From the NCBI GenBank assembly GCA_001544655.2, contig FCOD02000007.1, forward strand, positions 1 through 64,000: a DNA stretch of 64,000 bases, read 5' to 3'. The position numbers were made by a program, and so were the translations under genes. The stretch is from Caballeronia turbans. Lineage in GTDB: Bacteria; Pseudomonadota; Gammaproteobacteria; Burkholderiales; Burkholderiaceae. The notes beneath the pieces are model-generated. The model was not told the DNA's origin and searched no databases. It saw only the letters and a list, made by a program, of their open reading frames with translations. Shown here in pieces: positions 46,878 through 64,000 of this stretch (positions are counted from its first letter, which is position 1; every line of letters begins with the position of its first letter).

Positions 46878-47172
46878 CCTGGCTGATTGAAGCGGTTCGT
46901 CGGCATTTGGTTTGGCTACAGGGAAAGGCAATTTAGACGGCCGCGGAGAAAGCCGCCGTCAAGTTGAGCAGGGGATCGTGAGCGACTTGGCTTTCGCATA
47001 ATCGTCGGGTGCCGATCGTGCGTCATCTGCTCAGGGCTCTTTCGAGCCCGGCATTTCCTTCCAGATAAGAGGGTGACCCGACGCATTCTCGAGGCCGCGA
47101 AGCAACGGTTCGCAACCGTGGATTGACGGCCACCCCCCCTGCGAGCAGCTGGACGGCAAGTGACAAAACGCC
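46878..47172. other. 295-base stretch after selC without a clear gene
   Basis: Only short, overlapping frames of poor composition are present on both strands. This is the expected position of an attachment-site junction; I found no clear repeat of the tRNA 3' end in the rest of the window. Confidence 0.4.
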
Positions 47173-47460
47173 ATGCAGGCGCCCAAAACAAAAGGCCACG
47201 GGGCAAGGCCCCATTCGCTCGGCCCGTTCATGCTGGCCAAGCTCCATACGGTGCACGCGACCTGCAAGGACCGCGCTCAGACGAAGACCGTCAGCATCGC
47301 CAGCAAACGCAGCACGCAGGCGGCCTTCTACTGGAACGTCGAATTGCTGGAAAGATCATCCCGGCGGGCCTGTTTCTCCGCGGGTGAATTGGCACGTGCA
47401 TGCGCTGTCACCTATGTTGCCCGACAACATCGTCATCACCAGCGTCTCTTATGTCGTTAG
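47173..47460 (+). pseudogene. possible N-terminal fragment of an integrase-like protein
   Basis: A 95-codon frame starting MQAPKTKGHGARPHSLGPF and continuing FMLAKLHTVHATCKDRAQTK and TVSIASKRSTQAAFYWNVEL. The spacing of basic and aromatic residues recalls the N-terminal arm of integrase-domain proteins that sit at tRNA genes in Burkholderia, but this is from memory and weak. Coding-like sequence stops near residue 70, after which the frame becomes random. No catalytic core is present. It could also be a small gene of another kind. Confidence 0.3.
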
Positions 47461-47693
47461 AGTGACACTAGTGAGAAAGTCCGATGCAACCGACGTCCGC
47501 ATCGTCGACGCACATCACAACAAGGTGCTGCGGGCCGATCACTAAAAGCACTCCTAATTTCATGCGAGACATGGCCTTCTCCTTTGCCGGCAATGCTGGT
47601 TCAGGTCGCGCTTGCCGTAGTTACGGCTGCGGATTCGAATCGGCGGTTCCCGAATTGACCCTTAGCGCGACTTCCCCGGTCCGAAGCTTCCAA

Positions 47694-48872
47694 TCAGAAA
47701 CGGTGACGCACGCCGACGGTGGCCTCGATCTGATTCGATGTCGATGCGGGTGAACTCACACCGTTGATCCAGGCGACTCCCAGCGGGTTGCCAGCCCTCG
47801 CGCTTACGCTTTGATAGGTGCTTTGAATATAGACGTCCGTGCGTTTCGAGAAGGCGTAGTTCCCGAGCGCGCTCACCTGATTCCAGTGCGGAGCACCACT
47901 CCCGGCGTTGCCTCCGGCCCGTGAGTATGTGTAGGCGGCCGCCAGCATAACGGCTGGTGTCAAAGCGAACCGGATGTTTCCTTCATAGTTCTGGAAGTGG
48001 GTATTGAAGCCAGTGAGGAACAGCTCGGTCAGGTTCGTTTGTGTATAGACGATGCCCGCGACCAACGGACCGAACGCGTAGTTGACGCCTCCGCCCCACG
48101 TCTGTTGCCGGCGAGCGAGTGCACCTAATGGCACGGCGGTCGGCGTCAGAAGACCTGATAACGAGGTCCCGAGCGTATCGGTGACAGCGCCGTTCGTGTT
48201 GAGTTGTGCCGGGGTGCCGGCCGAGTTGTTCAGATGCAAATACCCGGCGCCAAAGTTCAACGGTCCCCACATGTACGACATGCCGACACTGTACGCACGG
48301 TTGTTCGCGAAACCACCTGCCTGGTTCGAGAAGCCATACAAGGCCCCGATCCTGAAGCCGGCAAAATTCGGGCTTTGATATTTGACCGAATTGTTGATCT
48401 GGAACGAGTCGTTCAAATTGTCGACGTCGAACGGATGTGCGAAGTGGGTGCCGCCATACTGTGTGCCGGTCAACGAGAGCGGCCCTACGAAGTCAACCAT
48501 GCCGTCAGTCTGACGTCCCAAGGTCAGTGAGCCAAAATCCCGGCTGGACACTCCGACGTAGGCCAAGCGGTTGAAGATGCGATTGGCCGACGACAACTGC
48601 CCGTTGTTCAGATTGAAGCCGTTCTCCAGAGTGAAGATCGCCTGCAACCCGCCGCCGAGATCTTCCGCTCCGCGCAGCCCCCAACGACTGTACTGTACGC
48701 CGCCACTCGTCATCTGCCAGTTGCTGTGACCTCCTGCTCCGGTGCCGGTGATCTGGCTGTTCGTGTAAGTCAGACCTGCGTCGATCAGACCGTAAAGCGT
48801 GACATTGCTTTGCGCCTGCGCCGAGCCGGCCAAGGTAGCCAGCGCCGCACCGGCAATGAGAGTTTTCTTCAT
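47694..48872 (-). CDS. Gram-negative trimeric porin
   Basis: A 392-residue porin with a 20-residue signal peptide (MKKTLIAGAALATLAGSAQA, cleaved after AQA) and mature start QSNVTLYGLIDAGLTYTNSQ. Porin blocks seen are SRWGLRGAEDLGGGLQAIFT, TLGRQTDGMVDFVGPLS, and a C-terminal GVRHRF. It differs clearly from the porin at 31884 and is richer in Asn and Gly. It lies in the lower-GC region after selC, so it may have arrived with the island. Its upstream region is shared with no other gene. Confidence 0.9.
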   Translation of the reverse strand: MKKTLIAGAALATLAGSAQAQSNVTLYGLIDAGLTYTNSQITGTGAGGHSNWQMTSGGVQYSRWGLRGAEDLGGGLQAIFTLENGFNLNNGQLSSANRIFNRLAYVGVSSRDFGSLTLGRQTDGMVDFVGPLSLTGTQYGGTHFAHPFDVDNLNDSFQINNSVKYQSPNFAGFRIGALYGFSNQAGGFANNRAYSVGMSYMWGPLNFGAGYLHLNNSAGTPAQLNTNGAVTDTLGTSLSGLLTPTAVPLGALARRQQTWGGGVNYAFGPLVAGIVYTQTNLTELFLTGFNTHFQNYEGNIRFALTPAVMLAAAYTYSRAGGNAGSGAPHWNQVSALGNYAFSKRTDVYIQSTYQSVSARAGNPLGVAWINGVSSPASTSNQIEATVGVRHRF

Positions 48873-49265
48873 TTGCTACTCCAGGGTTGTGGGCTGTCTT
48901 CGTTAAACGCTTCACGTCACCCCGTACCGCGCCGTCCTCTCTGCGGAGAAGTTGCTGTCGCGATACGACGATAATCGCAATTGGGTGTCCGAATCTATCG
49001 TGTCGTAAAGTTTGTCGCTCGACAGCAACACGCGCGGTCACGTCGCCTGGAGTTACTGTCCGCGACGAAAGCAACATGTGTGTTCGTTCGGCATCCTGCG
49101 ATTAAAAATAGCGTTCAAATGCCAGCGATATATCTTCGGTTTGCGTTTTTCGTTTACGAGATAACCTTCCTCTTCGCCATTGGAATTGAGCTGAAGCAGA
49201 TCTCCACGGTGGTTCACCCGTTTCGGCGGGTTTTTTTCGTCCGCGTGTTCGCGACAGTGGCGTTC
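48873..49265. other. 393-base region between porin and IS91 remnant
   Basis: The region is AT-richer than the chromosome and must hold the porin promoter at its left end. At 49216-49237 a small ACCCG/CGGGT hairpin with a T run faces the plus strand, without any obvious plus-strand gene before it. No coding sequence is convincing. Confidence 0.4.
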
Positions 49266-49800
49266 ATGCGGCCGAGCAAGTTGAACGTCCTCATGGACAA
49301 CATGCGCATGCGCCGACTCGCGCCGAAGACCCAGGCCAACTATTTACGTGCGGTTCGAGATTTGACCATCTTCCGGATGGAAACCGGTGGGTCGCATGCA
49401 GGCCGGGTTTCTTCCTTCCAGTGCGCGTGCACTCGCGTTTGTTCCGGCGACGCTTCCTCGCAGAACTCGAGGCCCACCTATCGCCGCGGCCAGTTGCGCT
49501 TCTTCGGCGAATACGTGCACCTCGACGATGTGGCTGCTTTTACCAAGTGGCTCGCGTCAATGCGCGCATGGAAGCGGGTGGTGTATGCCAAGCGCCCCTT
49601 TGCCGGGCCCAAAGCGGTGTTGGCCTATCTGTCGCGTTACACGCACCGAGTCGCGGATCTCCAACCAACGTCTGGTGGCGCTCGACGAACATGGCGTCAC
49701 CTCGCCCTGGAAGGACTATCGCGTCAACGGACGCACGTGCAACAAGACTATGACACTCGAACTCGATGAGTTCGCGCGGCGGTTCTTGCTGCACGTTCTG
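49266..49800 (+). pseudogene. IS91-family transposase remnant fused to an integrase fragment
   Basis: The first 40 codons (MDNMRMRRLAPKTQANYLRA) are the N-terminal core-binding part of the tyrosine recombinase that accompanies IS91-like elements. They run directly into pieces of the IS91 transposase, which are spread over three frames: SRLFRRRFLAELEA, then FAGPKAVLAYLSRYTHRVA, then ISNQRLVALDEHGVTSPWKD and LDEFARRFLLHVLP. At least two frameshifts and an internal deletion are needed to explain this, so the element is dead. It abuts the stop of the repeat-protein gene on the other strand. Confidence 0.75.
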
Positions 49801-49801
49801 C

Positions 49802-50623
49802 CTAGTATCCGGGCGGTGGCGGAACTTGCGTGTACACCACGCCGCCGCTCCCATATCCCGTCGCGTACCACGTCGCGCCACACTTATAGTACGGCACGTC
49901 CTTAACGGCGATGGGGGCGACGTTGCACGGCGGCGCGACAGGCGCAGGCGCAGCGACGACGGTGGTGGTTGCGGGCGGCGGTGTGGTTGCGGCAGCGGCC
50001 GCACCGACCACCATTGCCCCGGCCACAAATCCGGCCGCCGCAGAACCGCCGTCCCAATCCGAGTTGCAGTCGTAACAACCGCCCGAGTAGTTGTTCTGCA
50101 CGTTGGTCACGTTCGTAGCACGCGTGTTTTGCATCTCCTTAGCGGTGGATTGACGCGCACTCTGGTTTTGGCTGGTCGTTTGAGCCGCCGCGGTCTGTCG
50201 TGCGTTCTGGTTCTGACTCGACGTAGCTTGGCGCTGCGCCTGGTTCTCGCTCGTGCTCTGCTGCCGGTTAGGCTGATTTTGGCTGGAGGTTGCCTGCCTC
50301 GAACTCGCCGAACTCTGGCGCGCACTCTGATTCGCACTTGAAGTTGAAGTTGCGGTGGCTTGGCGCGAGGCCAGAGTTTGTTGGGCCGCCGCTGATTGGC
50401 CGCCACCACGCTTCGCGCCTCCTTGCGCCGCGGTTGTGCCGCCGGATGACAACCCTCCAGACGACGCCGCCCCGCCACGGGAAAAGCCGCCGTCGCCGCC
50501 ACCACCACCGCGAGCACCACCGCCTCTCTCGCCTCGTGCCTCCGCTTGATTCATCAAGCCCAGCGCGAATACTCCGGCGACGAGTGCCGTGACGACACGA
50601 TCCCATGATCCGGTTTTCATCAT
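49802..50623 (-). CDS. secreted Gln/Asn/Ser-repeat hypothetical protein
   Basis: A 273-residue exported protein. The N terminus is a signal peptide (VVTALVAGVFALGLMNQAEA). A glycine-rich stretch follows, then residues about 85-175 are an imperfect repeat built on SQNQxARQ/SENQAQRQ units spaced 13-14 residues. The C-terminal domain contains CYDCNSDWDGGSAAAGF, a Pro/Val linker and a final YYKCGATWYATGYG...PPPPGY motif, a common ending in surface-associated small proteins. It overlaps by four bases the end of the DUF2092 gene, so the two form an operon. Function unknown; it may be a surface adhesin or matrix-type protein. Confidence 0.75.
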   Translation of the reverse strand: MMKTGSWDRVVTALVAGVFALGLMNQAEARGERGGGARGGGGGDGGFSRGGAASSGGLSSGGTTAAQGGAKRGGGQSAAAQQTLASRQATATSTSSANQSARQSSASSRQATSSQNQPNRQQSTSENQAQRQATSSQNQNARQTAAAQTTSQNQSARQSTAKEMQNTRATNVTNVQNNYSGGCYDCNSDWDGGSAAAGFVAGAMVVGAAAAATTPPPATTTVVAAPAPVAPPCNVAPIAVKDVPYYKCGATWYATGYGSGGVVYTQVPPPPGY

Positions 50624-51474
50624 TTCGCCCCCTTCTTCGCAGACGACTGGCGAGCCGTGGGCGACGCACGGGGAAGCTGCGCTGCGAACGCGACTTTTTG
50701 CAGGCCATCGGGAATCTGTGCCGAGAATGTCGCATCGTTAAGCTGGGGCGCAAGATCCCAGTCGACAAAGTCCGCCCAGAACTGAGGCTGGCCCACCGCC
50801 TTTCTGTAAGTTAGTACGATCCGCTGCAGCAGAGGTTTGTCGCCATCGGCTATCCACACCTGAAAATCCACCGTGTCGGTACGCGCGGCTAAATGATAGG
50901 ACGCAGTGCCGGAGATACTCGTCTTCTCCACATAGTCCACCGACCGTACCCGGGCTTGCAATTCTTCAGGCAGCGAGTTCAACAGGAGCGCCGCGAGCGG
51001 CAGGCGCATGCCGAGATCCTTGACGAAATACACGATGCTCTCGTCCAGACTGCCAGGTTGCGGCGCCGTCGCATAGACTTTGCTGGCGAGATCGACCAGA
51101 ACGATCTCTTTCCCGGTGAGCACAACGAGCGTTTTTGCGCCATCGCTGCGCTCGCTTTCCACGCGCATACGATCCGGCCGGCTCAACGTAACGGTGCGGT
51201 ATTCGCCGAATTCGATTTTCTGCCCGGACGGCTGCACGGCGTCGTACCCGCTGCGCACACCGACACGAAAGCTCGGCGTCCCCCCAAGGAACTCCGCCAT
51301 TTTCATCAGAATCGCCCGAGCCTGGGCTTGGGAGGCGGTGTCGTGCTCAGCTGGCGCGGCACGGACCGGTGGTTCTTTCTGCCCGGAGCCAGAGTAGGCG
51401 TGAGGAGCGGTGGTCAGCAGCAAAACCGATACCCACGTAGCCCTGGACGCGCGGCGCAATATGTTAGTGATCAA
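50620..51474 (-). CDS. DUF2092-family periplasmic protein
   Basis: A 284-residue protein with a hydrophobic signal segment (TWVSVLLLTTAPHAYS) and a DUF2092 domain related in fold to LolA/LppX lipid-binding proteins (FRVGVRSGYDAVQPSGQKIE, RPDRMRVESERSDGAKT, VYFVKDLGMRLPLAALLLN). It is probably periplasmic. The TTG at 51474 is taken as the start because AAGGAG lies eight bases upstream; an ATG at 51555 in the same frame has no such site. It is cotranscribed with the repeat protein gene. Role unknown; a chaperone or carrier for that protein is a possibility. Confidence 0.75.
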   Translation of the reverse strand: MITNILRRASRATWVSVLLLTTAPHAYSGSGQKEPPVRAAPAEHDTASQAQARAILMKMAEFLGGTPSFRVGVRSGYDAVQPSGQKIEFGEYRTVTLSRPDRMRVESERSDGAKTLVVLTGKEIVLVDLASKVYATAPQPGSLDESIVYFVKDLGMRLPLAALLLNSLPEELQARVRSVDYVEKTSISGTASYHLAARTDTVDFQVWIADGDKPLLQRIVLTYRKAVGQPQFWADFVDWDLAPQLNDATFSAQIPDGLQKVAFAAQLPRASPTARQSSAKKGAK

Positions 51475-51719
51475 TTTGTTAACTCCTTCTGCTCGAATAC
51501 CTCTCAACCGCCGGCCTCCCGCATAAAGAATAGTGGTTCGCAGAATTTTTTCCATTCGGTTTAAAGTGGCTTACTGGGCGGGTGAAAAGCGGCGTCAGGA
51601 CGCAGGGGTGACCATCACCGCGCCGTTGCTCGTGAAGCATTACCTAATAATGCCGAACTATCGGAACGTGAAATTGACCCGCCAAAACGGACTCCTATCC
51701 TTTGGATGAGGGGTGCCAA

Positions 51720-52495
51720 ATGGGCAAGCATCGAACACCGTAGCCGGCGGAGTTCCGGGCTCACCTGGTCGAGCTGGTGAAGGCGGAGCGAACGGCTGAG
51801 GAGTCGGCGCAGGCGTTCGAACCTAGCGTGCAGACAATAGTCGACGGGGTAGCACAGGCTGACATGGACGCCGGCGTGCGTCACGATGGCCCGACGACGG
51901 CCGAGCGTTAGGAGTTCACACGTCTGCGCCGCGAAAATCGGCAATTAAAAATCGAGCGCGACATTCTCGCTCACGCGGCGGCCTGATTCTCCCGGCGGGA
52001 CAGGAGCCGCATCCTCGAAGGATGCGGATTCTTGAAAGCGGACCGAGCCGGTTGGCCCATGTCACAATGGCACGCCTGCTCTATTCGGGGCAAGCCGACG
52101 GCGCTGGCCGCGTACTACGCGGCAACGTGCGGGGCCACGACGTGCGCCGGACCGGGTACGCCGGCACTTCAGTGCTGAGGGTCCGGACATACTTTGGGTG
52201 GCCGATGTCACTTATATTCCGACCGGCGAGGGGTTTCTCTATCTGGCCGTGGTGCTTGACGTATTCAGCCGGCGCATCGTTGGTTGAGCGATGTCGAACC
52301 CTTTGGATACCGCACTAATGTGGCACGCGCTGGACATCGCGTTTCAGCAGCGGCGCCATGAGGGAGTTATTCTGCATTCGGACCAGGGCTGTCAATACAC
52401 ATCCATTGCCTTCGGGCGGCGCTGCCGCGGAGCCGGTGTGCAACCGTCGATGGGGACGGCGAGCGACGCCTGCAATTCCGGTTCATCGCGTCGCC
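51720..52495 (+). pseudogene. IS3-family insertion sequence remnant (orfA and orfB)
   Basis: The sequence codes a decayed orfA (MGKHRTP-stop-PAEFRAHLVELVKAER, TTAER-stop-EFTRLRRENRQLKIERD) interrupted by at least three stops, and a partial orfB of the DDE type (ILWVADVTYIPTGEGFLYLA, VVLDVFSRRIVG, then GVILHSDQGCQYTSIAFGRR). WVADVTYIP holds the first Asp and HSDQGCQYTS the second. The glutamate end is lost. The start is about 51720 and the end is unclear. It is inactive. Confidence 0.8.
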
Positions 52496-52529
52496 TCTTT
52501 TCCGCGAATCGGGGCGGTGATTCTAATCT

Positions 52530-52950
52530 AAGCCGTGAGCTCTGGAACAAAGGCAAGTTGGTTGGTCAAAAGCCGCCGCTGAAGCCGAAAGAGATCTGGG
52601 CAATCCGGATTTACCTTCAGAACGCGCACGGGTTAATGATCTAGCGCTATTCAATCTTGCGATCGACAGCAAGCTGCGCGGGTGCGAGCTCGTTCAACCT
52701 GCATGTTCGCGACGTGACGCACGGCAATCAGATATTCCCCGCGCGATGATAATGCGGCGCAAGACTAAACGGCCCGTGCAGTTCGAGGTTACAGGGCACG
52801 CTCGCGTTGCGGTCGCTGCATGGATCGAAAAAGCTGAGTTGAGGTCCGAGGAGTACCTTTTCGGAAGCCGCTTTTCTCGGTCGCCGCATATCTCAACGCG
52901 ACAATACGCTCGTAAGGTACATCAATGGGTCGCCGCGCCACGGCAATGCG
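52530..52950 (+). pseudogene. tyrosine recombinase (phage-type integrase) remnant
   Basis: Pieces of a site-specific tyrosine recombinase occur in order: NKGKLVGQKPPLKPKEIWAI, then after a stop and a frameshift LFNLAIDSKLRGCELV (core with the catalytic Arg), RRKTKRPVQFEVT, and EEYLFGSRFSRSPHISTRQY. The C-terminal part with the catalytic His-Arg and Tyr is missing; the sequence stops just before the MFS gene of the biosynthetic cluster. It is non-functional and marks a recombination scar. Confidence 0.75.
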
Positions 52951-52970
52951 CTGTGACGCCGAGCCGTGCG

Positions 52971-54206
52971 TCATTCGACTTTGACGACCATCATGCGAAG
53001 CGAATCGGCCGTACGTGAATTGCGTTGCAGATAGCGCCACAACGCTGCGTAAGTCAGAAGTCCGAGCATGCTGACCGCGATGAAAATCGGTTGAACACCG
53101 AGACGGCCGCCGAATGTGGCCACAATCAAGCCGGCCACGGGCAGGCTCAATTGATTCAGCAATACGATCAGGCTCAGGACCCTGCCCAGTTGATCGCGGG
53201 GAATCCAGTGCGCGCGCTCCGTGCGGATATATACATTGAATAGACCGCAAGACGCAAAACTAAGCGCATAGCCCAGCACAAACACCGGAAATGACGATGC
53301 CATGCCCATAAGCAGCCCCCCTACGACGATCATTCCGAACGCGGTGACACCAATCCAGTAGACGGATAAACGGCGCGTCAGATAAGGAACGGCCAAGAAG
53401 CTGGCGAGCGCAACAGCTCCAACGATGGTCTGGAGAAATCCGAACAGACTGTTCGAAAGCCCGAACCGACCAGTGGTAATCGCCGCACCGGTGGCTAGCG
53501 CGACGCCGACAATCAGGTTCACCCCCATGCTCAATGCGATCAGTGCCCAGAGAACAGGCTTGTCACGTAACACTCCGACGGCCGCAGCTACGCCAGCATT
53601 GAAACCCTGTCGGTGTCCCGCACTTCGCGGTTCGGTGCGATGAAGGTCGTTTCGCAATGACCATACCAACAACGCACTGAGACCGAACACCGAAGCAGCG
53701 ACCCACAACAAGCCGCTGGGCGGAAATCGCGCGGCAAGCAGCGCGGCCAAGGCTGGCCCCGCAATACTGGCTGTCTGATCGATGGCTTGCAAAAGTGCCT
53801 GCGCCTTGTGCATTTGTTCCGGCATCACGAGCCTCGGAACGGTCGATTCGAGCGCAATGAACGCCTGTGCATAGAAAAACGCGCATACCGCGCTCAAGCT
53901 CGCAATGATTGGAAACGAATTCGACGGTGTCGCCAACGCCAGCCAGGCAACACATGCGCAGGCTATCGCGCGCGCCGTGTCCGCGAAGCCGTACACGCGC
54001 CAACTGTCCAGCCGGTCGCACAGGTTACCGGCGATTGGCAATGAACAGATTCGCGGCAACCATTCGATAAAAAACGCGAGGCCTGACATGGCGACGCTTC
54101 CCGTGCTGCGGTACACGATCAATGGCACCGCGAACATGAGGAACTGGTCTCCGAGCGAAGAGGCTGCCCGCGATAGCAAGAACCGGAGGATTACACCGCG
54201 CTGCAT
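52971..54206 (-). CDS. MFS transporter (probable product exporter)
   Basis: A 411-residue major facilitator transporter with 12 predicted helices, in the multidrug/enterobactin exporter-like subgroup (AASSLGDQFLMFAVPLIVYR opening, and FFIEWLPRICSLPIAGNLCD between helices 2 and 3). It is the last gene of the ATP-grasp operon, 10 bases after the third ligase stop, with an AAGGAG site before ATG 54206. The probable job is export of the metabolite and self-protection. The terminal part lies next to the integrase remnant, whose orientation is opposite. Confidence 0.85.
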   Translation of the reverse strand: MQRGVILRFLLSRAASSLGDQFLMFAVPLIVYRSTGSVAMSGLAFFIEWLPRICSLPIAGNLCDRLDSWRVYGFADTARAIACACVAWLALATPSNSFPIIASLSAVCAFFYAQAFIALESTVPRLVMPEQMHKAQALLQAIDQTASIAGPALAALLAARFPPSGLLWVAASVFGLSALLVWSLRNDLHRTEPRSAGHRQGFNAGVAAAVGVLRDKPVLWALIALSMGVNLIVGVALATGAAITTGRFGLSNSLFGFLQTIVGAVALASFLAVPYLTRRLSVYWIGVTAFGMIVVGGLLMGMASSFPVFVLGYALSFASCGLFNVYIRTERAHWIPRDQLGRVLSLIVLLNQLSLPVAGLIVATFGGRLGVQPIFIAVSMLGLLTYAALWRYLQRNSRTADSLRMMVVKVE

Positions 54207-54216
54207 AACATTCTCC

Positions 54217-55461
54217 TTAGGCTGCCGCGTCCAGTGGCAGGGATTCGATCCGCACCGACGCAAAGAGATCCTTGAGCAGGTGTTCAAGATCTTGGGTGGA
54301 CGGGCCAGCAATGACGCCGGCAGCCGGAGCTTCGGTGGCTTGATAGGTAATGTGCCGGGGCAGCGGTTGGCCGTGCGCGAGCTGATTCCAACGAGCCATC
54401 CAGGGATGCGAGACGAACCCTTGCGATCCGTGAAGATGGCACCCTCCGCGAGGCATGTGATGGCCTGGCAACACAAACCAACCGTAGCGGACGCCAGAAT
54501 CAGGCGTGGTGCGCAGCTCAACCGCTTCACCGATCAGCAATTTCAGCTCGCACGATGGCAGGTGTATGCCGGTGCGCATTCTGAAAGTGTCTACCACGTC
54601 GGCGCCCCCAACGCGGTTGGCTATTTCCAGAAAGACCAGAGAACCGCCATTATCGATTGCCTCGAGATGGAAGCTGCCGTCACGGATTTCAACGGCTGAC
54701 ACGACCTTCTGGACCCACTCGCGTGCAACCGGATCGTCGTCGATCTGCACCGATCCCAGAGGCATGCCCGACGCGTAGTCGAGGCAAGTGCCCACGTAGC
54801 GGCTGCCGACAACAACCGCGACCCGACTGTCTGTCACGAGTCCGTCGAAATGCAGAATGGGTCCGGTAACAAATTCTTCGATCTCAAAGCGCGCGGTGGC
54901 CAACGCGCGAGTCGCGTCGTCGAGGCTATATACGCCGGTTCGGTGGTCGTGCAGCGCCGTGAGCATCGCAGAGGGTGAGTCGAAGACCACGACGTCTTCG
55001 CTTGACGCACCGTCGAGCGGCTTGAGGACGGTTCTGCCGAACCAGTCGGCGATGCCGGGGTTGTCCATAAACTCAGCCAGCGCGATGGCGCGTGGAACGC
55101 GTAGGCCAGCCTGCGCGACCAGACGTTTCATCAGCAACTTGTCGCGCACCTTCTCGACTTTCGCAACTCCCGGTCCGCTTATGCCCAGTGCGTCGCGCAC
55201 TCGTGCGGCATCCAGCAATTCATATTCGGACAGTGAGAGTACCCGGTCGAACGTGATGTCGAGCGATTTGATAATGGCAATGACTTCGTCGCTCGCGCGA
55301 TCGGTACCAGGGCGAAGCAGTTGTTTGCACGGAAGCGAAGCGGGAATCGTTGCAAGATTCTTCTCCGTGCCGATGTAGTAAACGTCATGGCGATCATGAT
55401 CGATGCCGAGGTGATAATCGATCTTGTGATAGGGGATACGATGCAGAATAAGAATTCTCAC
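54217..55461 (-). CDS. ATP-grasp ligase C
   Basis: A 414-residue ATP-grasp protein. The N-terminal pre-domain begins RILILHRIPYHKIDYHLGID; the ATP-binding core has VEKVRDKLLMKRLVAQAGLR, TVLKPLDGASSEDVVVF, EEFVTGPILHFDGLV and LVFLEIANRVGGADVVDTFR, with the metal-binding Glu and Asn of the last block present. This group includes carboxylate-amine (peptide bond) ligases such as BacD and carnosine synthase-like enzymes. The start codon is GTG at 55461. It is the sixth gene of the operon. The amino-acid or acyl substrate cannot be told from the sequence. Confidence 0.85.
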   Translation of the reverse strand: MRILILHRIPYHKIDYHLGIDHDRHDVYYIGTEKNLATIPASLPCKQLLRPGTDRASDEVIAIIKSLDITFDRVLSLSEYELLDAARVRDALGISGPGVAKVEKVRDKLLMKRLVAQAGLRVPRAIALAEFMDNPGIADWFGRTVLKPLDGASSEDVVVFDSPSAMLTALHDHRTGVYSLDDATRALATARFEIEEFVTGPILHFDGLVTDSRVAVVVGSRYVGTCLDYASGMPLGSVQIDDDPVAREWVQKVVSAVEIRDGSFHLEAIDNGGSLVFLEIANRVGGADVVDTFRMRTGIHLPSCELKLLIGEAVELRTTPDSGVRYGWFVLPGHHMPRGGCHLHGSQGFVSHPWMARWNQLAHGQPLPRHITYQATEAPAAGVIAGPSTQDLEHLLKDLFASVRIESLPLDAAA

Positions 55462-55573
55462 GACAGCAGACCTCGCTGATAAATGCGTTAATCTCTTTTG
55501 GATCGATACGTCATGCGCTGCCTTCCGAAACGGCTCTTATCACGCGCCACGACAGCTTTTGGCCGCCGCTTCG

Positions 55574-56929
55574 CTATCCGTCGCACTGGGCGACGTCGAC
55601 CGCCTGGCGGAGGCATGAGCCGCGTACATATTGATGAAACGACGCTTTCCAAACCGTTTGCAGGTTGGACGCGAGATCCCGGATATCAATGTCATCGCGG
55701 GTCGTCGTCAGACATACCTGTGCGATGAAATCAGCGTTGTCCCGGGGAACGGCGTGAATGCGCCGAGCTTCCGCCGGCAACCAACAGAACTCATGCAATT
55801 CCAGGTCACCGCTTCGCAGAGATGGAAAGCGACTTTGTAGCGACGGCAAAACTACGTGATCGAGCAAGACGCTCGCGTCAGCGCCCATCGCCGAGATGAC
55901 GTCGGTGTCCTCCGCCACCCCAAGCATCACGGTCGCCGCCTGGCGGCTGGCTTGTGGTAATTCGCGCGGAATTTCTTCGCCGAATGCCTGATCGACCCAC
56001 AGGTGGTAAAGATTGACTTGATAGACCAGCGACGCAATCGTCCAGATCTTCATGCCTGCCGGCCGGCGATTCGGTTCGACAACGGCTGCGCGATGGCCGT
56101 CGTCGCTAAGCTTGATTTCATTGTGAAACGGCCCATTGCGCTGTCCGACCAGCAAGTTGGCCAAACGTCCGGCCACCGATATCGTATTCCGTTCGCGAGG
56201 TGTGATTCGCGCTGGCAAGACTTGTCCGAGCTCGACAGGGTATCGGCCGGTCGCGCTGATCTTTTCTGTAATAAAGGACAGGCTACCGATTCCATCGAAT
56301 GAAAATTCACGGCGATAGGGAATGAGTTCTTCGCAAATCACACCGTCAGAGAGATACGTTGAAACCTCCTTCAGAACGGCGGCGAGGTCGTCTCCTTGGC
56401 GCATGGTGACCACGCCCCGATTATTACCTTCACAGCTCGGCTTGACGACAAATCCCCCGGGATGCCGAACGGCAAATTCAGTTAGATCGGCCAGATTCCG
56501 GATCGGTGCACAATCCGGGACCATCATCCCTTGAGGCCCGAAGATATCCCGATGTCTCTGCTCAAGCGACCGATACGCGTGCTTGCTGAACGCCCCTTCA
56601 GCGAGGGTGCCGGAATCCACCGCTAGCCCAAGTGCCTCGAGAAGCAAGGCCCCGCTTTGCACAGCGTTGTCGGAAAACACCAGCCCACCTGCAAGTCGTG
56701 CGCGGTATGGTGCGAGTGCCACGAGGGCCCTTTCAACAAAGTCGTCGTCGCGCGGATTGAGGTCGATAACGCCATCGCAGATCGCTCGGTCGACATCAGT
56801 GGGCGTAGAACGGATGAGTAGCGACTGCGCACCATAACGGACTTTCGCATAGCAAGCCATCTGCCTTACATCTGCGACCCGCGAAAGATTGTAATCAACG
56901 AGTAGCAGGATTGGTTGAGCATGTATCAT
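55574..56929 (-). CDS. ATP-grasp ligase B
   Basis: A 451-residue ATP-grasp protein, distinct from A and C. The core contains FVVKPSCEGNNRGVVTMRQG, VICEELIPYRREFSFDGIGS, NEIKLSDDGHRAAVVEPNRR and a following PAGMKIW. The metal-binding block reads VVEPNRRPAG, where many homologues have EINxRxGG, so it retains Glu and Asn. It overlaps ligase A by four bases (ATGA) and is separated by 112 bases from ligase C. Probably forms an amide or peptide bond in a defined step of the same pathway. Confidence 0.85.
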   Translation of the reverse strand: MIHAQPILLLVDYNLSRVADVRQMACYAKVRYGAQSLLIRSTPTDVDRAICDGVIDLNPRDDDFVERALVALAPYRARLAGGLVFSDNAVQSGALLLEALGLAVDSGTLAEGAFSKHAYRSLEQRHRDIFGPQGMMVPDCAPIRNLADLTEFAVRHPGGFVVKPSCEGNNRGVVTMRQGDDLAAVLKEVSTYLSDGVICEELIPYRREFSFDGIGSLSFITEKISATGRYPVELGQVLPARITPRERNTISVAGRLANLLVGQRNGPFHNEIKLSDDGHRAAVVEPNRRPAGMKIWTIASLVYQVNLYHLWVDQAFGEEIPRELPQASRQAATVMLGVAEDTDVISAMGADASVLLDHVVLPSLQSRFPSLRSGDLELHEFCWLPAEARRIHAVPRDNADFIAQVCLTTTRDDIDIRDLASNLQTVWKASFHQYVRGSCLRQAVDVAQCDG

Positions 56930-58269
56930 CGTGCTCGCTCCTTCGCATAGCGTACAGTGACTGCGCTGTTGGAATTCTTTACTATTACTGGCAATAGAGT
57001 CTCACGCTCGGCCAGGTCAAAGTGCCACAACAATTGGCCCAGGAAAACCTCGCGAGAACTCGCCTGCACGTCGTCTCCCGCCTTCAGAAAAATCTGCGAA
57101 ACAACGGGCTTGGGCAAGTGATTTTCGACGGCCACATGTTCTATCCTGCCCGGCTCGGCGAAATAAACGCGAAAGAATGTACTCTTCGCATGACGCTGCG
57201 TGCCGTCCATGTCAAATGCCAAAGCTTTTAGCTTGTTGCGCCGAGCGTTCAGTGCGGACTGACCCAGCGACGCGTCGACCAGCAGATCCAACCAGAGATC
57301 CAACATGCTGTGCTGACCATTCAGCGACTTCACACTCGCCGAGATCAGACTCCCCCCAACCCGCGGATTGATCTCAATCAAATCCCATCGACCCGTATCG
57401 AAGCGTGCCTCGATATGAAAGCAACCCCATTTGCAATCCAGTTGTTTAAAAATCTCGTTGATCCAACGCTGGCCTTGCGCTATCGCGTCTGCATCGATGC
57501 TGCAGGGAGGGCATACACAACTGTTCTCGAGCACGGTCGTGGCGTTTTCGGTCAGCTCGCACTTTTCGTGTACGGCGAGTACGCTCACGTCGCCGTTGCT
57601 CAAGATGACTTCAAAACTGAACTCCCGGCCAGGGACGTAGTCCTCCGCTAGAAATTCGAGTCGGTTACCAAACGCCGATTGATAAATGACATCGTCGGAC
57701 GCTTCGTCGGCGACCTTGATGAGATCCTCCCAGGTAGTCTCGGGGCGCAACGAAAACGCGCCGTAAGAGGCGATTCCACACACTGGCTTGACGAACAGTT
57801 TTCGACCGCTCGCTTTAAGTTCATCAAGCGTTTCCGGGGTCAACCGGTGAGCGCGAGCACGCGTGAGGCCCAAAGTCTCCAGCGTGTTGCGCAATTCGCG
57901 CTTATTGCGCAGCATGCCGACCTGGGCGGGCGTAAGATCCGGTACACCCAGGTTCTGGTTCGCCAGCGCCATGAGATCCCGGTAGCCTTCCCACACGCAA
58001 ATGCAGCAGAGCAGGGTCTCGCCATCAGCTTGCAAAGTTTTGAGCGTGGCTTCGACATCCTCGGCAGTCAAGGCATGGGATTGCGTTGTAATCAGCCGGT
58101 CCGCTTTCTGTTCAAGTTCCACAAGGCGCGTCGCCTCGACTTCGGGCAGTGGCCGTGACGACAGAACGATGCCGCGGAAGCCTCGGGCCTTGACCGATTC
58201 CAAGAGATCCTCCATAAAGGAAAATCCGCAATGGCTTAGCAGTAGAACGCCATTCCTTTCTTTGGTCAT
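56926..58269 (-). CDS. ATP-grasp ligase A
   Basis: A 447-residue ATP-grasp protein. Key pieces are MLRNKRELRNTLETLGLTRA (lid helix), KLFVKPVCGIASYGAFSLRP, AEDYVPGREFSFEVILSNGD and DLIEINPRVGGSLISAS, the last with intact metal ligands. GREFSFE is usual in amino-acid ligases of this fold. ATG 58269 with GGAGAAG upstream is used; a GTG at 58272 is also possible. It starts 13 bases after the diiron enzyme stop and overlaps ligase B. Three such ligases in a row suggest successive couplings on one scaffold. Confidence 0.85.
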   Translation of the reverse strand: MTKERNGVLLLSHCGFSFMEDLLESVKARGFRGIVLSSRPLPEVEATRLVELEQKADRLITTQSHALTAEDVEATLKTLQADGETLLCCICVWEGYRDLMALANQNLGVPDLTPAQVGMLRNKRELRNTLETLGLTRARAHRLTPETLDELKASGRKLFVKPVCGIASYGAFSLRPETTWEDLIKVADEASDDVIYQSAFGNRLEFLAEDYVPGREFSFEVILSNGDVSVLAVHEKCELTENATTVLENSCVCPPCSIDADAIAQGQRWINEIFKQLDCKWGCFHIEARFDTGRWDLIEINPRVGGSLISASVKSLNGQHSMLDLWLDLLVDASLGQSALNARRNKLKALAFDMDGTQRHAKSTFFRVYFAEPGRIEHVAVENHLPKPVVSQIFLKAGDDVQASSREVFLGQLLWHFDLAERETLLPVIVKNSNSAVTVRYAKERAR

Positions 58270-58281
58270 CACCTTCTCCTC

Positions 58282-59037
58282 TTATGCCGCTGCCTTCCGA
58301 AGCTTGGGTTCCATCACGTCTTCGTACAACTCGGTGAAATAGAGTCCCAGCACTTTCTGATGCTCGCCAAGGTATCGCTTCAAGTGCTCGATGTCTTCGT
58401 CGTTTCTGAGCAGATGACGAATCACGTCCCAGACTTCACCTGGATGGTCGTCATTGATATCCGTGTGAGAATGCGCGACCTGGCCCGATATGTTGTCTTC
58501 GCCCACGGATTGCTTGAGAGCATCGATCTTTCTGGGCTCGAGCTTTACATTGACGTATTCCACCAGGTACGAATACGCCACCACCCCGAGAGGATCTTCA
58601 TGATCGAGCAAATAGGAGAAAAATCCAGAAAGCAATTTGGTGGACAAATATGGCTCGGTCGCCAGAAATTGCTCACGGCTGACCCCAGCTTTGGCCAGGT
58701 CCTGGATAAAAAGCTGGTCGTGAAGCATTTCTTCCCGCTCGTAATTGGCCCATATCTGCGCGGCCCTCGGACTACGCTTGGCGATTTCGGCAAGGGCCTT
58801 CGACTCAACGACGCGCAAAAGACGAATTCTCCAAGCGGTCTCGATCAAATGGCGGCGATAGTAATCCGGATCGACTACTTCACCTTCAAGGTGAGCGGCA
58901 TAGGGAACCGTTTGATACCAGAGTTCGACTTGCTGGTCGATAATCTTGTCTATTTCCTTTCTCAACATCGACGATTCGCTTGTGTTGATAAAAGGCACGG
59001 AATTAGGAAAGCCGACATTGTGGACTCGATTTGACAT
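58282..59037 (-). CDS. heme-oxygenase-like diiron oxidoreductase (HDO superfamily)
   Basis: A 251-residue all-helical protein of the iron-containing redox enzyme group (PqqC/TenA/heme oxygenase fold). Candidate metal ligands appear in order: Glu66, Glu103 and His106 (REEMLHD), Glu160 (SYLVEYVNV), His191, and His198 in HTDINDDH. Spacing matches UndA and BesC as I recall them. The usual Asp of HxxxDxxH is Asn195 here. Such enzymes use O2 for N-oxygenation, decarboxylation or C-C cleavage of amino or fatty acids. The ferredoxin gene 38 bases upstream may supply electrons. Third gene of the operon, upstream of the ligases. Confidence 0.78.
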   Translation of the reverse strand: MSNRVHNVGFPNSVPFINTSESSMLRKEIDKIIDQQVELWYQTVPYAAHLEGEVVDPDYYRRHLIETAWRIRLLRVVESKALAEIAKRSPRAAQIWANYEREEMLHDQLFIQDLAKAGVSREQFLATEPYLSTKLLSGFFSYLLDHEDPLGVVAYSYLVEYVNVKLEPRKIDALKQSVGEDNISGQVAHSHTDINDDHPGEVWDVIRHLLRNDEDIEHLKRYLGEHQKVLGLYFTELYEDVMEPKLRKAAA

Positions 59038-59074
59038 GATATTTTCTCTGTTCGTCTAATTTAAAAATAGGATT

Positions 59075-59365
59075 CTAGATTTCGGTGTTGATGGTGGCGG
59101 TGCCATTAATTTTGCATTGGCAGGCCAGTCTGAATCTTCCGTCGTCGTAACCGAGGAAGGTTAGAAGCTTGAGTTCCCGTTCGGTTGGCTCGCTGAGACA
59201 GCCAAATCCATTGAGCACTTCGATGACGCAAGCACCGCAAGCTCCTGCTCGGCAACCAGCAGGTATGACGTCACTATCCCTCAGTTCAAACTCCAGATCA
59301 CTCAGACGAGCCGACTCGGCTAGATGAACCGTCACGTTAAGCGGAAAAATATGTAAAAGTGCCAT
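59075..59365 (-). CDS. [2Fe-2S] plant-type ferredoxin
   Basis: A 96-residue ferredoxin. Cys38, Cys43 and Cys46 (PAGCRAGACGACVIEV) and Cys82 or Cys84 (LACQC) bind the [2Fe-2S] cluster, the plant-type arrangement. It is too small to be a domain of a larger reductase and no ferredoxin reductase gene is present, so it must be recharged by a housekeeping reductase. It lies just upstream of the diiron oxygenase gene and probably reduces it. Confidence 0.85.
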   Translation of the reverse strand: MALLHIFPLNVTVHLAESARLSDLEFELRDSDVIPAGCRAGACGACVIEVLNGFGCLSEPTERELKLLTFLGYDDGRFRLACQCKINGTATINTEI

Positions 59366-59415
59366 ACGAGTTAGTTGGATTAGATGGATTCCAAAAGTCT
59401 CCCTGTCGTGTTTAA

Positions 59416-59727
59416 TTAAAATAAGCCCGAATCCAAAAGTGGATTTGCATCGCTACTTGATCCAGCCGGATCAATAAACGGGATGATGGCTTCTTGATAA
59501 CTTTGACGATCCCATTCGCGTGGTTTCGCGCACCTGTCGTCAGGATCAGTTAGCAGGTCGAGTGAAAATAGAGGCGAGCGTGGCACGACTACTCCTATTA
59601 TGAAACGCGTCCCAGTGGAACAGAAAACGGACGCGCGTTGCGCGCCCACATAAAACCAGGTCCTCGGATTCAGAAAGTATTCCCGGAAGTGACTGTTCAC
59701 CAATATTGTTTGGTGCGAGTAATTCAA
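59416..59727 (-). CDS. small protein of unknown function, first gene of the ATP-grasp operon
   Basis: A 103-codon gene with lower GC. It starts with TTG at 59727 (weak ribosome binding site; GTG 59697 is an alternative). The product begins NYSHQTILVNSHFREYFLNP, has a hydrophobic-aromatic middle (GTRFIIGVVVPRSPLF), and ends with an acidic and small-residue tail, DPAGSSSDANPLLDSGLF. No signal peptide, no known domain. Its place at the head of the operon makes it a candidate for a carrier, binding partner or peptide substrate of the ligases, but nothing in the sequence proves this, and it could be a short non-conserved frame. Confidence 0.45.
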   Translation of the reverse strand: MNYSHQTILVNSHFREYFLNPRTWFYVGAQRASVFCSTGTRFIIGVVVPRSPLFSLDLLTDPDDRCAKPREWDRQSYQEAIIPFIDPAGSSSDANPLLDSGLF

Positions 59728-60595
59728 GACTTCGACCGCTAGGCCTTATATCGCCGAACGTCGACGCTTATTCGATGCGCAGCTCCATGGGTGCAGTTAT
59801 CCCACGACGACATCGCTTCCACATCCCCACAGAAGTGTGTATGCCAAGGTAGAGGCCGAGCGCTCAGAGAGACCGTGTCGCTCGTGGAGCAGGCGGCCGA
59901 CGTGGTCTACGTATGCAAGAGAACGGCACGGCTGTGTCGCCATAACGGTCATTCACATGATCGCGCCTGATGATGCCAAGCGTTACGCGATGATCGGAGG
60001 CGTTTGCGCTTATCGCTCGTTGCCGAAGTTGCAAGGTTGAAATGAGATAACAACAGGATACCTAATCGAGCGAAACTTAGAGAAGTCCGAGATAGTCGAG
60101 GATCTGGCATTCACGGCGCCGTTCTACACCTGACAGGTCGAGCGCTGCTCCGTATCGTTCGTTGCGTCTGATCGGCGGGATGTGACTGCTGCTGCATGCA
60201 CGACGAAATTCGACAAGCGATAGGCCGCTGCCGGCGGACCATGCCGTATTTCACGACAAGACGAGACGGACGCGCGGTGGTTCCCGACGTTCCATGGAAA
60301 AGTTGGCGCAAGCTCGCGATGCTCACGCACGTGAGCCGCGGTAGGCGAACCCGGCCAACGCTCAGCGTTATTGACGCGCAGCGCGAGCGGCGTCACTCGC
60401 GGCCAACGGCGTGTAATTTGGTAGGACTGTCGACGCGCGAGCACCTGGCTCCAGCAAGCGAGTCCGGCCACTGTCGCGTCGATCGTCATTGCGACGATGG
60501 AGGAATGCTTTTATAACTTGCGCACGCACAGCGCTTTCAGAGAGGGCGTTGCATGACAACGTTCGAGGGCGTGCGTTGCCCATGGCATCGGCGGC
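59728..60595. other. 868-base stretch without a clear gene
   Basis: Only short frames are present, none with persuasive composition. A piece near 60470-60560 (IVIATMEECFYNLRTHSAFR) might be the tail of a lost gene. The left part must carry the promoter of the minus-strand ATP-grasp operon; I could not identify clear -10 and -35 boxes. The lower GC ends at about 60590. Confidence 0.4.
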
Positions 60596-61666
60596 TCAGG
60601 AAGGAATGATGTGCTCGCGCTTCAGCCGGTCGAACAGATTGAAGAACGCATCGGGCGTGCTCTGGTAATCGAGAAATCCGAGCTTGCGGCTCTTCGACAT
60701 GTCCGTCAGCACTTCCATCGGGCGGCCGAGGTCGGCGTCCGTATGCCACCACGAGACGAGGTTATCGATATCGTGCTCGGCGAGCGCGTAGCGTGCCGCG
60801 ATGTCCGCCCAGGTCTGGCGAGCGCGATGCATGCGGCTTTCAAGCGGTCGAATGTGTCCGTCGAAGGGTGCCGGCTCCACGCCGAAATACTCCGCGATGC
60901 GCGCCCACATCCATTTCCATCGGAACACGTCCCCGTTGACGACATTGAACGCCTCATTGCGGGCCGAGGCAGACGTGGCAGCCCATTCGAGGTGCCGCGC
61001 GAGCAGACGGGCGTCGGTCATGTCGGTCAGGCCGTTCCATTGCGCAGCCGAGCCCGGAAACAGGAAGGGTTCGCCAGTCTCCTTGCATAGCGTCGCATAG
61101 ACGGCCAGCGTGACGCCCATGTTCATGGCGTTGCCCACTGCATAGCCGATGATGGTGTGCGGACGGTGTACGCTCCAGCTGAATCCGTACTGGCGCGCGG
61201 CATCGAAAAGCCGATCTTCCTGCTCGTAGTAAAAATTGTCGACCGGTTGCCGGCCCTGTTCCTCGCGAAACGGGGTTGTCGGAACGCTGCCTTGGGCATA
61301 GGCCTCGAAAGGACCGAGATAGTGCTTCAAGCCGGTAACGAGGGCTGCGTGCGACAGAGCGCCAGTGGGGCCCAGCGCCGCGAGCACATTCGCGACCATT
61401 GCTCCGTTGACGCGGATGTTTTCGGCTTCGGTCGCCTGGCGCGACCATGCAGTGAAGAAGACATGGCTGAACTGCCGCCCCTTCAGAGCGTCCGCGACCG
61501 ATGTCGTCGATGTGAGGTCGGCGGTGATCGATTCCACGCCGGCAGGCGGGGCCGTGCGACCGCGTGACAGCCCGGCAATCGCCCAGTCACCGCGCGACTG
61601 AAGGTGCTCGGCAAGATTGCGTCCGACGATGCCGGTGCCGCCGATGATTAGTGCTCGCTTGTCCAT
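60596..61666 (-). CDS. PRISE-family NAD(P)-dependent enone reductase
   Basis: A 356-residue extended-SDR protein related to progesterone 5-beta-reductase and iridoid synthase. The cofactor loop is IIGGTGIVGRNLAEHL, TGLKHYLGPFEAY contains the catalytic Lys region, and DNFYYEQEDRLF is the NFYYxxED motif of the PRISE family, with the Tyr. Enzymes of this kind reduce 1,4-enones. The gene is high-GC and outside the low-GC cluster, so it is probably a normal chromosomal gene. ATG 61666 gives a clean start. Confidence 0.85.
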   Translation of the reverse strand: MDKRALIIGGTGIVGRNLAEHLQSRGDWAIAGLSRGRTAPPAGVESITADLTSTTSVADALKGRQFSHVFFTAWSRQATEAENIRVNGAMVANVLAALGPTGALSHAALVTGLKHYLGPFEAYAQGSVPTTPFREEQGRQPVDNFYYEQEDRLFDAARQYGFSWSVHRPHTIIGYAVGNAMNMGVTLAVYATLCKETGEPFLFPGSAAQWNGLTDMTDARLLARHLEWAATSASARNEAFNVVNGDVFRWKWMWARIAEYFGVEPAPFDGHIRPLESRMHRARQTWADIAARYALAEHDIDNLVSWWHTDADLGRPMEVLTDMSKSRKLGFLDYQSTPDAFFNLFDRLKREHIIPS

Positions 61667-62034
61667 TGCATCTCACTGTGTTTTGAATTAATCGAGGCCG
61701 TCCGCGTGGACTGCTCATGTAAGTGTGAGGCTTGGCCGAAAAGTCTGCTTGCACCGAGGTGCGCGGAAAAAAAGACGGTCGAGCGGTTCTTTTAGCGGCC
61801 GTGGGGATGGGAGCGGCGCCGGCCATACGTGCAGGTGTGATCGGAGCTTCCAGTCCAAAGCGCCCGCAAAACATCTGAAGACGGTTGTAGATCGACCGAC
61901 GACCTCGATGTCGGTCCAGAAGGATCTCGGTAGCGCCCCCTGCGAGGCAAGCGCGGGCGGCTCGCGACAAATGCGCTGAAGCGGTGTCGCAGGGCAATGG
62001 CGCGCCGAGATCGCGCGCTGCATCGAGCGTCCCC
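61667..62034. other. 368-base intergenic region
   Basis: No gene is convincing; frames on the minus strand of about 100-136 codons have unlikely composition. It separates two minus-strand genes and should hold the promoter of the PRISE gene. Confidence 0.4.
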
Positions 62035-64000
62035 CTACGAAACGCTGCCTAGCCGGTTTCGTGTATTGCCCGATTCGACGATCAGTTCGTTTAACTGAGT
62101 GATGCTGGCGGGCTTGACCAGGTGATGATCGAAGCCCGCCTGTCTCGCGCGCTCGAAATGCTCCTCCCCCGCGTATCCACTATGCGCGATCAGCATGGTG
62201 TCTGCAAAATCGGGCGTCGCGCGCAGCCGGCGAGCCACTTCGTAGCCGTCCATGTCCGGCAACCCGATATCGAGTAGGACGATGTCAGGACGAAAGTCCT
62301 TCGCGCGCAGCAAGGCAGTTGGGCCGTCCTGCACGACCTGGACTTCGTGCCCGTCCAGCTTGAGCAGCATGGCGGTGCTTTCGGCTGCGTCTGCATTGTC
62401 ATCCACAATAAGGATCCGTCGAGGGCGCGTCGGTTGTGCGCGAATCGGCAGGGCGACTGCAGGGGAATGCTCCACCTCGATGTCTTCTGCGGGAAGCGCT
62501 GGAAGTCGAACAACGAACTGGCTGCCGCGTCCCAGCCCTTCGCTCGAGGCGCGTACGGTTCCGTGATGCAGATGAACGAGTCGCTGCACGAGGGCAAGGC
62601 CGAGACCCAGCCCGGCAGACTTACGGTCAAGCGAGCGTTCCGCCTGGACAAAGACAGTGAAGATCGTTGGCAAAAAGTCCGCCGCCATGCCGATACCGTT
62701 GTCTTGGACTGTCAGCGTTGCCTGACCGTCGTCGCGCGTAAGGGACACAGCAATTTCTCCGCCAGGCAAGGTGTATTTGATCGCATTGCCAAGCAGGTTG
62801 ACGACAATCTGTTCGAGCCGCATCGAGTCCCCTTCGACCATCAGTGATTCAGCCGGTAAGGCAAGTGACAGCCGGTGCCGGCGTGCGTCGCTTTCTGTGC
62901 GGATGGTGGCCACGCCGTGGCGCACGATCTGCACCAGATCGACGGGCTCGACTTTGAGCTTGATGATGCCGCGTGTAATGCGCGATACGTCCAGAAGGTC
63001 GTCGACCAAGCCGATTTCGTGCTTCAACTGCCGCTTTGCAGAATCGCGGGCGCGTTGCTCAGTGTCGGCGTCGACGTCCATCCGCTCCCATATCGCAAGC
63101 CCGTTGCTGATCGCCGCGAGGGGGTTGCGCAGTTCGTGCGCCAGCATCGCAAGGAATTCGTCTTTCTGATGGTCGGCCGCTTCCAGTCGGTCAACCAACC
63201 GCTGATGTTGCGTAATGTCTTCAATGGTGAGCACGATCAGTTCATGCACTCGTCCGACCACGCGGGCAGCATTGAGCCGCATCGTGCGGACCCAATTTCC
63301 TCAAATACATGCGTAATCACGAAGTCGCGAACGATGGCTTTTCGCGGGAGAATATTTTCGAGCAACTCGCGTAGGCCCGGGATATCCCACTGTCCATTTC
63401 CCAACAAATAGAGCATCGCACCGATCGTGGTATCGGACGTCGTCCGGAAGGTTTCGTAGAACGCGCGATTAGCCCGCGTAACGCGCAGGTCTGGCTCCAG
63501 CACCAGCAGCGGGTCGGACATCGTGTCGATGATCGCGTCGGCATAGTCACGTGCTCGCACCACATCGTCGTGAGTCGTCTTGAGTTCCTGATTGCGATAG
63601 CGCAGCTCATCGTTGGTCGTCGAGAGTTCTTCGTTCAGTGACTGCAACTCCTCTTTCGCCGCTTCGAGCTCTTCATTGGTGCTCTGGAATTCTTCGTTAC
63701 TTGATAGCAGTTCTTCTTCGCTTGACTTGAGCTCTTCGCGTGCGCTTTCGTGTTCCGCGAGCATGGTTCGAAGCTGCGTTCGCATGGCGCCGACCTCGGC
63801 GTTCAGTCGGACGATCTCTTCGTCTTTCGGATCCGCGCCCTGTGAGACGACCTTGCGCCCCAGACGTTGGCGCAACGTCTGCAACATCAGGGACTTCAAC
63901 GGCTCATCCTTTTGCGTCGACAGGGTATCCGAACTCTTCAGGCTGCCTTCAAAAAACGTCAAAAACCAGCGGCCCGCCGCTTCGGCGGTCTGGACCGGAT
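62035..64000 (-). pseudogene. hybrid sensor histidine kinase (CheB/CheR-PAS-HK-REC type), frameshifted and cut by the window edge
   Basis: Two frames that belong together. The right part (63237 to beyond 64000) reads EAAGRWFLTFFEGS, a long coiled coil rich in EELxSxNEE repeats (SSEEELLSSNEEFQSTNEEL), and a PAS domain. The left part (62035-63282) holds a histidine kinase (FLAMLAHELRNPLAAISN with the phospho-His, VNLLGNAIKYT, GLGLGLALVQ) and a C-terminal receiver (ILIVDDNADAAE, VLLDIGLPDMDG). The join, near 63280-63290, needs one extra base: FEEIG and TMRLNAARVV are in different frames but normally contiguous. So either a one-base deletion or a sequencing error splits it. The upstream CheB/CheR-like part is outside the window. 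Confidence 0.75.

Follow-up and report, generated by a model that had tools for sequence, protein, structure and literature searches.

What does a bacterium make with three different ATP-grasp ligases, a heme-oxygenase-like diiron enzyme (HDO) and a ferredoxin encoded side by side? The question is raised by the window analysed here, a stretch of 64,000 nucleotides from Caballeronia turbans (contig FCOD02000007.1 of assembly GCA_001544655.2; source genome of 7.35 Mb in 120 contigs), in which an operon of seven minus-strand genes spans positions 52971-59586. An initial annotation had listed seven open reading frames at this place; all are present, and their coordinates are right except for two starts. 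In order of transcription they are:

59416..59586, minus strand: 56-amino-acid (56-aa) protein, first gene of the operon, 66% identical in Caballeronia calidae
59075..59365, minus strand: [2Fe-2S] ferredoxin Fdx, 96 aa; Fer2, 34.4 bits (Pfam cut-off 21)
58282..59037, minus strand: HDO; PF14518 Haem_oxygenas_2, 31.9 bits (cut-off 28.9); matches MboA, PDB 9YPI
56926..58272, minus strand: predicted ATP-grasp L-amino-acid ligase AG1; PF13535, 61.4 bits; own clade
55574..56929, minus strand: ATP-grasp ligase AG2; PF13535, 24.7 bits
54217..55461, minus strand: predicted ATP-grasp L-amino-acid ligase AG3; PF13535, 25.8 bits
52971..54206, minus strand: major facilitator superfamily (MFS) transporter, start corrected; PF07690, 94 bits

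The proposed pairing of an HDO with its own ferredoxin holds, both Pfam families scoring above their cut-offs, as does the exporter-type gene; the PF13535 scores of AG2 and AG3 lie slightly below the 27-bit cut-off. The AG1 and AG2 genes overlap by 4 nt, 112 nt separate AG2 from AG3, and the MFS gene begins 10 nt past the end of AG3, its start being most likely the ATG at 54206, preceded by AAGGAG, and not 54530.

According to our analysis, the operon is genuine, intact and apparently mobile; it belongs to the HDO plus ATP-grasp kind and stands nearest to that of mangotoxin. For its chemistry, the guess with the best support is that a peptide side chain is desaturated. In the reading that we favour, with a probability of about 0.5, the horizontally moved operon would direct the synthesis of a short, exported, modified oligopeptide without a nonribosomal peptide synthetase (NRPS) or ribosome, and HDO and ferredoxin would desaturate a side chain other than arginine.

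The comparison starts from the oxidative enzyme. Searched as a single sequence against the PDB, HDO matched MboA of the mangotoxin pathway at 1e-16, followed by 3DDE at 1e-6. A profile built from 36 family members gave 4.5e-28 for MboA and 3e-12 for 3DDE; the remaining matches were two CADD-type proteins, CT610 (0.14) and 4-aminobenzoate synthase (0.16), with nothing further up to E=1. By sequence, MboA is thus by far the nearest solved HDO. The initial annotation had named bacilysin, BesC, UndA and SznF as kin and had left mangotoxin unmentioned; we discarded them as closest relatives because the profile finds MboA first. HrmI/BelK, BesC, UndA and SznF belong to the same superfamily; the profile's four PDB matches at E<=1 include none of them, in a PDB copy that contains HrmI for certain and in which the presence of the others is unconfirmed.

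To follow the operon across genomes, we kept the best 80 of 98 confirmed HDO relatives from a scan of species genomes and added two plasmid loci (L030 and L031), which gave 82 loci. These are not all independent and include near-copies (L030 and L055 are one species), and their genes were labelled by blastp to the window proteins at 1e-8, a threshold that distant ferredoxins may escape. Whole-genome searches found HDO in 10 of 58 genomes of the genus, the window's own included, and, at E<=1e-3, in 19 of 399 from the order: the source genome, three strong relatives (44-49% identical over nearly full length) and 15 weak ones (E 7e-8 to 7e-4). Relatives are also present in eight plasmid records, with the best matches in Burkholderia stagnalis and Streptomyces cyaneofuscatus; phage records gave no match.

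This neighbourhood search, which the initial annotation had suggested as a check, showed that the set recurs in other species. Among the 47 loci with HDO identity of at least 60%, drawn from Burkholderiaceae, Pseudomonas, Streptomyces and cyanobacteria, 41 keep the order Fdx-HDO-AG1-AG2-AG3. Of the six exceptions, one has AG3 upstream (L088), four end with their contig (L060, L062, L073, L085), and in L081 AG1 stops inside the contig and neither AG2 nor AG3 was found there. The 35 loci below 60% are arranged as AG3-AG1-HDO (15), Fdx-HDO-AG1-AG3-AG2 (nine), AG3-AG1-HDO-Fdx (eight) or HDO-AG1 (three, including L092 at 58% identity, whose contig ends at the start of AG2). All five core genes are present in 43 rows, the window and 42 loci. 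Across these, their pairwise identities correlate at r 0.83-0.96; HDO averages 77% identity, the ligases 56-58% and Fdx 53%. The conserved order, together with this divergence in step, bears out the idea of one biosynthetic unit. A tree of the joined ligases, made by a quick method that flagged several long branches, pairs the window with C. calidae (support 99) on a deep branch away from the other Burkholderiaceae loci, and their parent fork is unresolved.

How the HDO might read its substrate was approached by mapping MboA residues onto the window protein through the distant pairwise alignment of the PDB search and published residue numbers (PMC13185094). The window HDO has the set of three histidines and three carboxylates expected of an HDO, and these iron ligands (E103, H106, E160, H189, D193 and H198) are kept in all 82 loci, as are Y99 and D107, the counterparts of MboA Tyr82 (the proposed base) and Asp90 (an extra ligand). 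All three MboA residues that contact the guanidinium of arginine are replaced: Asn57 by L74, Asp61 by E78 and Asp139 by S156. The resulting Leu/Glu/Ser triplet at 74/78/156 occurs in 47 of the 47 loci above the 60% mark. Other arrangements have triplets of their own, Ser/His/Ser in 8/8 AG3-AG1-HDO-Fdx loci, Ser/Gln/Asn in 15/15 AG3-AG1-HDO loci and Met/Gln/Ser in 9/9 Fdx-HDO-AG1-AG3-AG2 loci; one of the three HDO-AG1 loci carries Leu/Glu/Ser and two carry Ser/Gln/Asn. To judge from these residues, it looks as though each gene arrangement has one substrate, which differs from that of MboA.

The ligases would supply the peptide on which such an enzyme acts. In single-sequence PDB searches, AG1 matched the L-amino-acid ligase BL00235 at 2.9e-9 and AG3 matched the L-amino acid ligase 4WD3 at 5e-13 and also BL00235, and AG2 had no match; the family profile of AG2 reached BacD at 1.2e-11 and BL00235 at 2.3e-11. 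By sequence kinship, all three are L-amino-acid-ligase-like. As had been claimed, they differ from each other: a tree of 40 rows, from 13 of the 82 loci plus the window and Paraburkholderia phymatum and made by a quick method with long branches flagged, separates AG1, AG2 and AG3 into three clades (support 100, with 99 for AG3 and 100 for AG2). BacD, BL00235 and 4WD3 share the ATP-grasp family with them but are single ligases, whereas in the present family three orthologous groups stay linked to an HDO. An AG1 was identified in 81 of the 82 loci, an AG3 in 75 and an AG2 in 52, which makes AG1 and AG3 the standard pair, to which AG2 is added. Probably AG3 and AG1 make the part required by the HDO family, and AG2 contributes a further coupling; several peptide couplings by the three ligases would follow.

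How close, then, is mangotoxin? In this comparison MboA was placed by the PDB-search alignment and MboB to MboF by published descriptions. The mboABCDEF operon of Pseudomonas syringae, whose genetics have been reported (PMC3355146), resembles the window operon in having an HDO of the same family, a dedicated Fe2S2 redox partner and ATP-grasp ligases instead of an NRPS, all in one unit. Its proteins MboA to MboE, namely an HDO, a flavin adenine dinucleotide (FAD)/Fe2S2 reductase, two ATP-grasp ligases and a deiminase, produce an alkynyl tripeptide, and the substrate of MboA is the finished tripeptide (PMC13185094). The window operon differs in having three ligases instead of two, and in its extra 56-aa protein and MFS gene. 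A further MboA-like HDO was seen on plasmid pBPHY02 of P. phymatum (L033:8995-12245), with the equivalents of Asn57 and Asp61 and two ATP-grasp ligases, between nif and nod genes; one of these ligases falls inside the AG3 clade and the other has no clear place. P. phenoliruptrix and P. sabiae, whose listed source is Mimosa, have plasmid-borne HDOs that resemble this one and are 31% identical to the window's.

The ferredoxin belongs to the same comparison. Wherever one was found (63 loci), Cys 38, 43, 46, 82 and 84 are all kept, and the window protein matches Ferredoxin-4 (9I2A) at 2e-11. MboB unites flavin and Fe2S2 within a single protein, which MboA requires for its second desaturation (PMC13185094), whereas the window operon encodes a bare ferredoxin. 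In 16 of the 17 actinobacterial loci of the 60% class, the Fdx gene is preceded on its strand by an oxidoreductase gene; the 17th (L073) has no upstream sequence. The L031 copy is of the NAD(P)/FAD type by Pfam (Pyr_redox_2), and its gene overlaps that of the ferredoxin by 4 nt. By analogy, the actinobacterial oxidoreductase and ferredoxin together would match the role of the one-protein MboB.

From these elements, a pathway can be proposed. AG1 and AG3 would join L-amino acids into a small peptide, with AG2 available for a third coupling. HDO, fed by its own [2Fe-2S] ferredoxin, would use O2 at its diiron centre to introduce unsaturation into a side chain. As in MboA, the residue concerned would most likely be the one that coordinates Fe1 through its carboxylate. 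Since MboA can complete two turnovers with its dedicated redox partner, the desaturation might proceed in two steps as far as an alkyne. The side chain would not be read the way MboA reads arginine, and the MFS protein would export the product. N-oxygenation, decarboxylation and alkene formation had all been considered for the oxidative step; among them, kinship with MboA leads us to favour desaturation.

Several observations weigh against this pathway. With all three arginine contacts of MboA changed, both substrate and reaction may differ from those of MboA. Neither a reductase, by Pfam and the list of open reading frames, nor a counterpart of the arginine deiminase MboE is among the seven genes, so that a reductase of the host would have to serve. 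The ferredoxin was not found by blastp at 1e-8 in 19 of 82 loci (15 AG3-AG1-HDO, three HDO-AG1 and L073, whose contig starts at HDO) and is therefore not universal in the wider family. Finally, the equivalent of Tyr99 is present in the HDOs of L032-L035, two of which (L034 and L035) stand beside opine-dehydrogenase-like genes, so that this tyrosine is no proof of desaturation.

Could the oxidation precede peptide formation? HDO might act on a free amino acid, by N-oxygenation as in HrmI or by C-C/C-N cleavage as in BesC, with the ligases then masking the residue in a peptide. HrmI and BelK do act on L-lysine (PMC13108848), and the higher mean identity of HDO than of the ligases looks as if a fixed substrate were combined with a variable rest of the peptide. 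However, the HDO profile retrieved no HrmI up to E=1 although HrmI was in the searched library, an HrmI-like enzyme occurs near the core as a separate second HDO in nine of 14 Burkholderiaceae loci, and the closest relative, MboA, works on a finished tripeptide. We therefore regard an initial step on a free amino acid as rather unlikely. An oxidation of the peptide other than desaturation, such as hydroxylation, epoxidation or ring closure, would suit a side-chain pocket unlike that of MboA and an enzyme class whose reviewed chemistry is diverse (PMC13108848); given the kinship with MboA and the retained tyrosine in the place of its proposed base, we consider it doubtful.

It seems very improbable that the operon has decayed or fallen silent and no longer functions in this strain, as the insertion-sequence remnants on its left flank and the lack of a sigma-70-like match in a consensus scan upstream of the 56-aa gene on the minus strand might suggest. 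We looked for disabling mutations and found none: the reading frames contain no stops, and the metal ligands of HDO and ferredoxin are intact. In comparison with C. calidae, the core genes are under purifying selection, with ratios of nonsynonymous to synonymous substitution (dN/dS) of 0.07-0.17 in six of the seven genes (Fdx, HDO, AG1-3 and MFS).

Other lineages have partner genes of their own, which lie outside the window and were counted from blastp labels in the 47 loci. A PvdN-like pyridoxal phosphate (PLP) enzyme (the L031 copy matches 5I90 at 2e-83) accompanies the core in 11 of 12 Pseudomonas loci, the 12th ending early, and in 11 of 17 actinobacterial loci. PvdN acts on a glutamyl group of pyoverdine; if so, the versions at these loci may carry a glutamyl end. 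The HrmI-like second HDO (the L030 copy matches HrmI, 9N1A, at 1.2e-29) comes with a PLP decarboxylase in the same nine Burkholderiaceae loci; the two adjoin the core in Burkholderia, Trinickia and others (L030:7563-11308), which suggests a second oxidised building block. A DUF885 protein is present in 13 of 17 actinobacterial loci. MFS relatives 49-59% identical to the window's occur in the HDO loci of two cyanobacteria, Chromobacterium, two Chitiniphilus and Aeromonas, and an MFS protein akin to it stands with a luciferase-like protein (label Pfam-checked in L086 only) in one cyanobacterium, Chromobacterium and two Streptomyces (L087, L088, L071, L086). By comparison, the window operon is plain, consisting of the core, the transporter and a 56-aa protein of its own. 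Sister arrangements with an HDO and two ligases were seen in L098-L102 and in Streptomyces loci such as L117, L123 and L128, and for families that recur among their neighbours, the representatives match DUF1611, EPSP synthase, aminotransferase and PhyH; these are other uncharacterised pathways.

How did the operon reach this genome? Two further features bear on this:

52936..60137, no strand: island common to the window and C. calidae
51668..52644, plus strand: insertion-sequence-like remnants, left flank

By blastn, the 7.2-kb island is 88-93% identical between the two species and lies in different flanks. DNA 72-83% identical to 51668-52469 occurs in Caballeronia and Paraburkholderia replicons at up to eight places per record among the matches listed, and 52291-52644 holds a PF00665 rve fragment (29.3 bits, below the cut-off of 32.6). 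The shared island in different flanks and the remnants on the left support the view that the whole module moved, in line with the horizontal acquisition proposed before. The lower GC content on which that proposal had drawn is also real, lying mainly over HDO and Fdx (0.48-0.52 per 1-kb segment, versus 0.60-0.62 to the right). The right-flank short-chain dehydrogenase/reductase (SDR) gene is present in 33 of 58 genus genomes and the left-flank DUF2092 gene in five, the source genome counted in both, and searches of these genomes with both flanks found no empty site spanning the two. In seven of the SDR stretches (L129-L135), blastn similarity to window positions 44000-64000 comprised the SDR gene and its immediate edge, the operon being unmatched. 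About 1.8 kb including the DUF2092 gene (49804-51558) has a second copy elsewhere in the genome (L137), at 89% identity. Further off, the window contains a selenocysteine insertion sequence (SECIS) element (Rfam RF01989; 35513-35571) and a selenocysteine tRNA gene (46782-46877).

For the first gene of the operon, a 103-aa protein had been predicted; the gene stands, in its last 56 codons, whereas the longer reading was abandoned because the part before the GTG at 59586, which follows AGGAG, is broken by indels in C. calidae. The 56 codons kept there show a dN/dS of 0.35. The window protein has no Pfam match, no match in plasmid records and, beyond C. calidae, no significant match in loci L001-L128. 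We considered it as a pathway scaffold or precursor peptide and dropped the idea, as the window genome and C. calidae were the only places where it turned up; elsewhere the core does without it. The leader before this gene contains, by pattern match, a GC-rich hairpin followed by T residues (59627-59649, minus strand); hairpin-type matches in the region number 12, versus 8.3 (sd 3.3) in shuffles, which is not clearly higher.

What does such an operon mean for the family? Operons combining ATP-grasp ligases with diiron oxygenase-cupin proteins, a different architecture, were predicted in 2010 (PMC2922099). HDO plus ATP-grasp clusters were named as a class in 2026, with 1447 HDO sequences near an ATP-grasp ligase and at least 25 unique cluster types (PMC13185094). 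The window operon fits the definition given there and may be one of these types; we found no paper describing this gene set in a search outside which most subscription journals lay. As a tentative extension, a cassette of ferredoxin, HDO and three ligases shared across phyla might equip a residue other than arginine in a tri- or tetrapeptide with an alkene or alkyne group. It would thereby represent a second substrate class of peptide acetylenases and an interchangeable warhead module, which lineages combine with partners of their own (PvdN-like enzyme, HrmI-like second HDO, DUF885 protein or luciferase-like oxygenase). Alkyne-forming peptide HDOs have been described only recently (MboA, 2026; PMC13185094). 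The products of the loci collected here are likely small peptides with reactive groups, of which we found no description in the literature searched. These loci comprise dozens of natural homologues that differ cleanly, arrangement by arrangement, at the positions with which MboA reads its side chain, so that comparing them makes it possible to test substrate choice and what the redox partner does.

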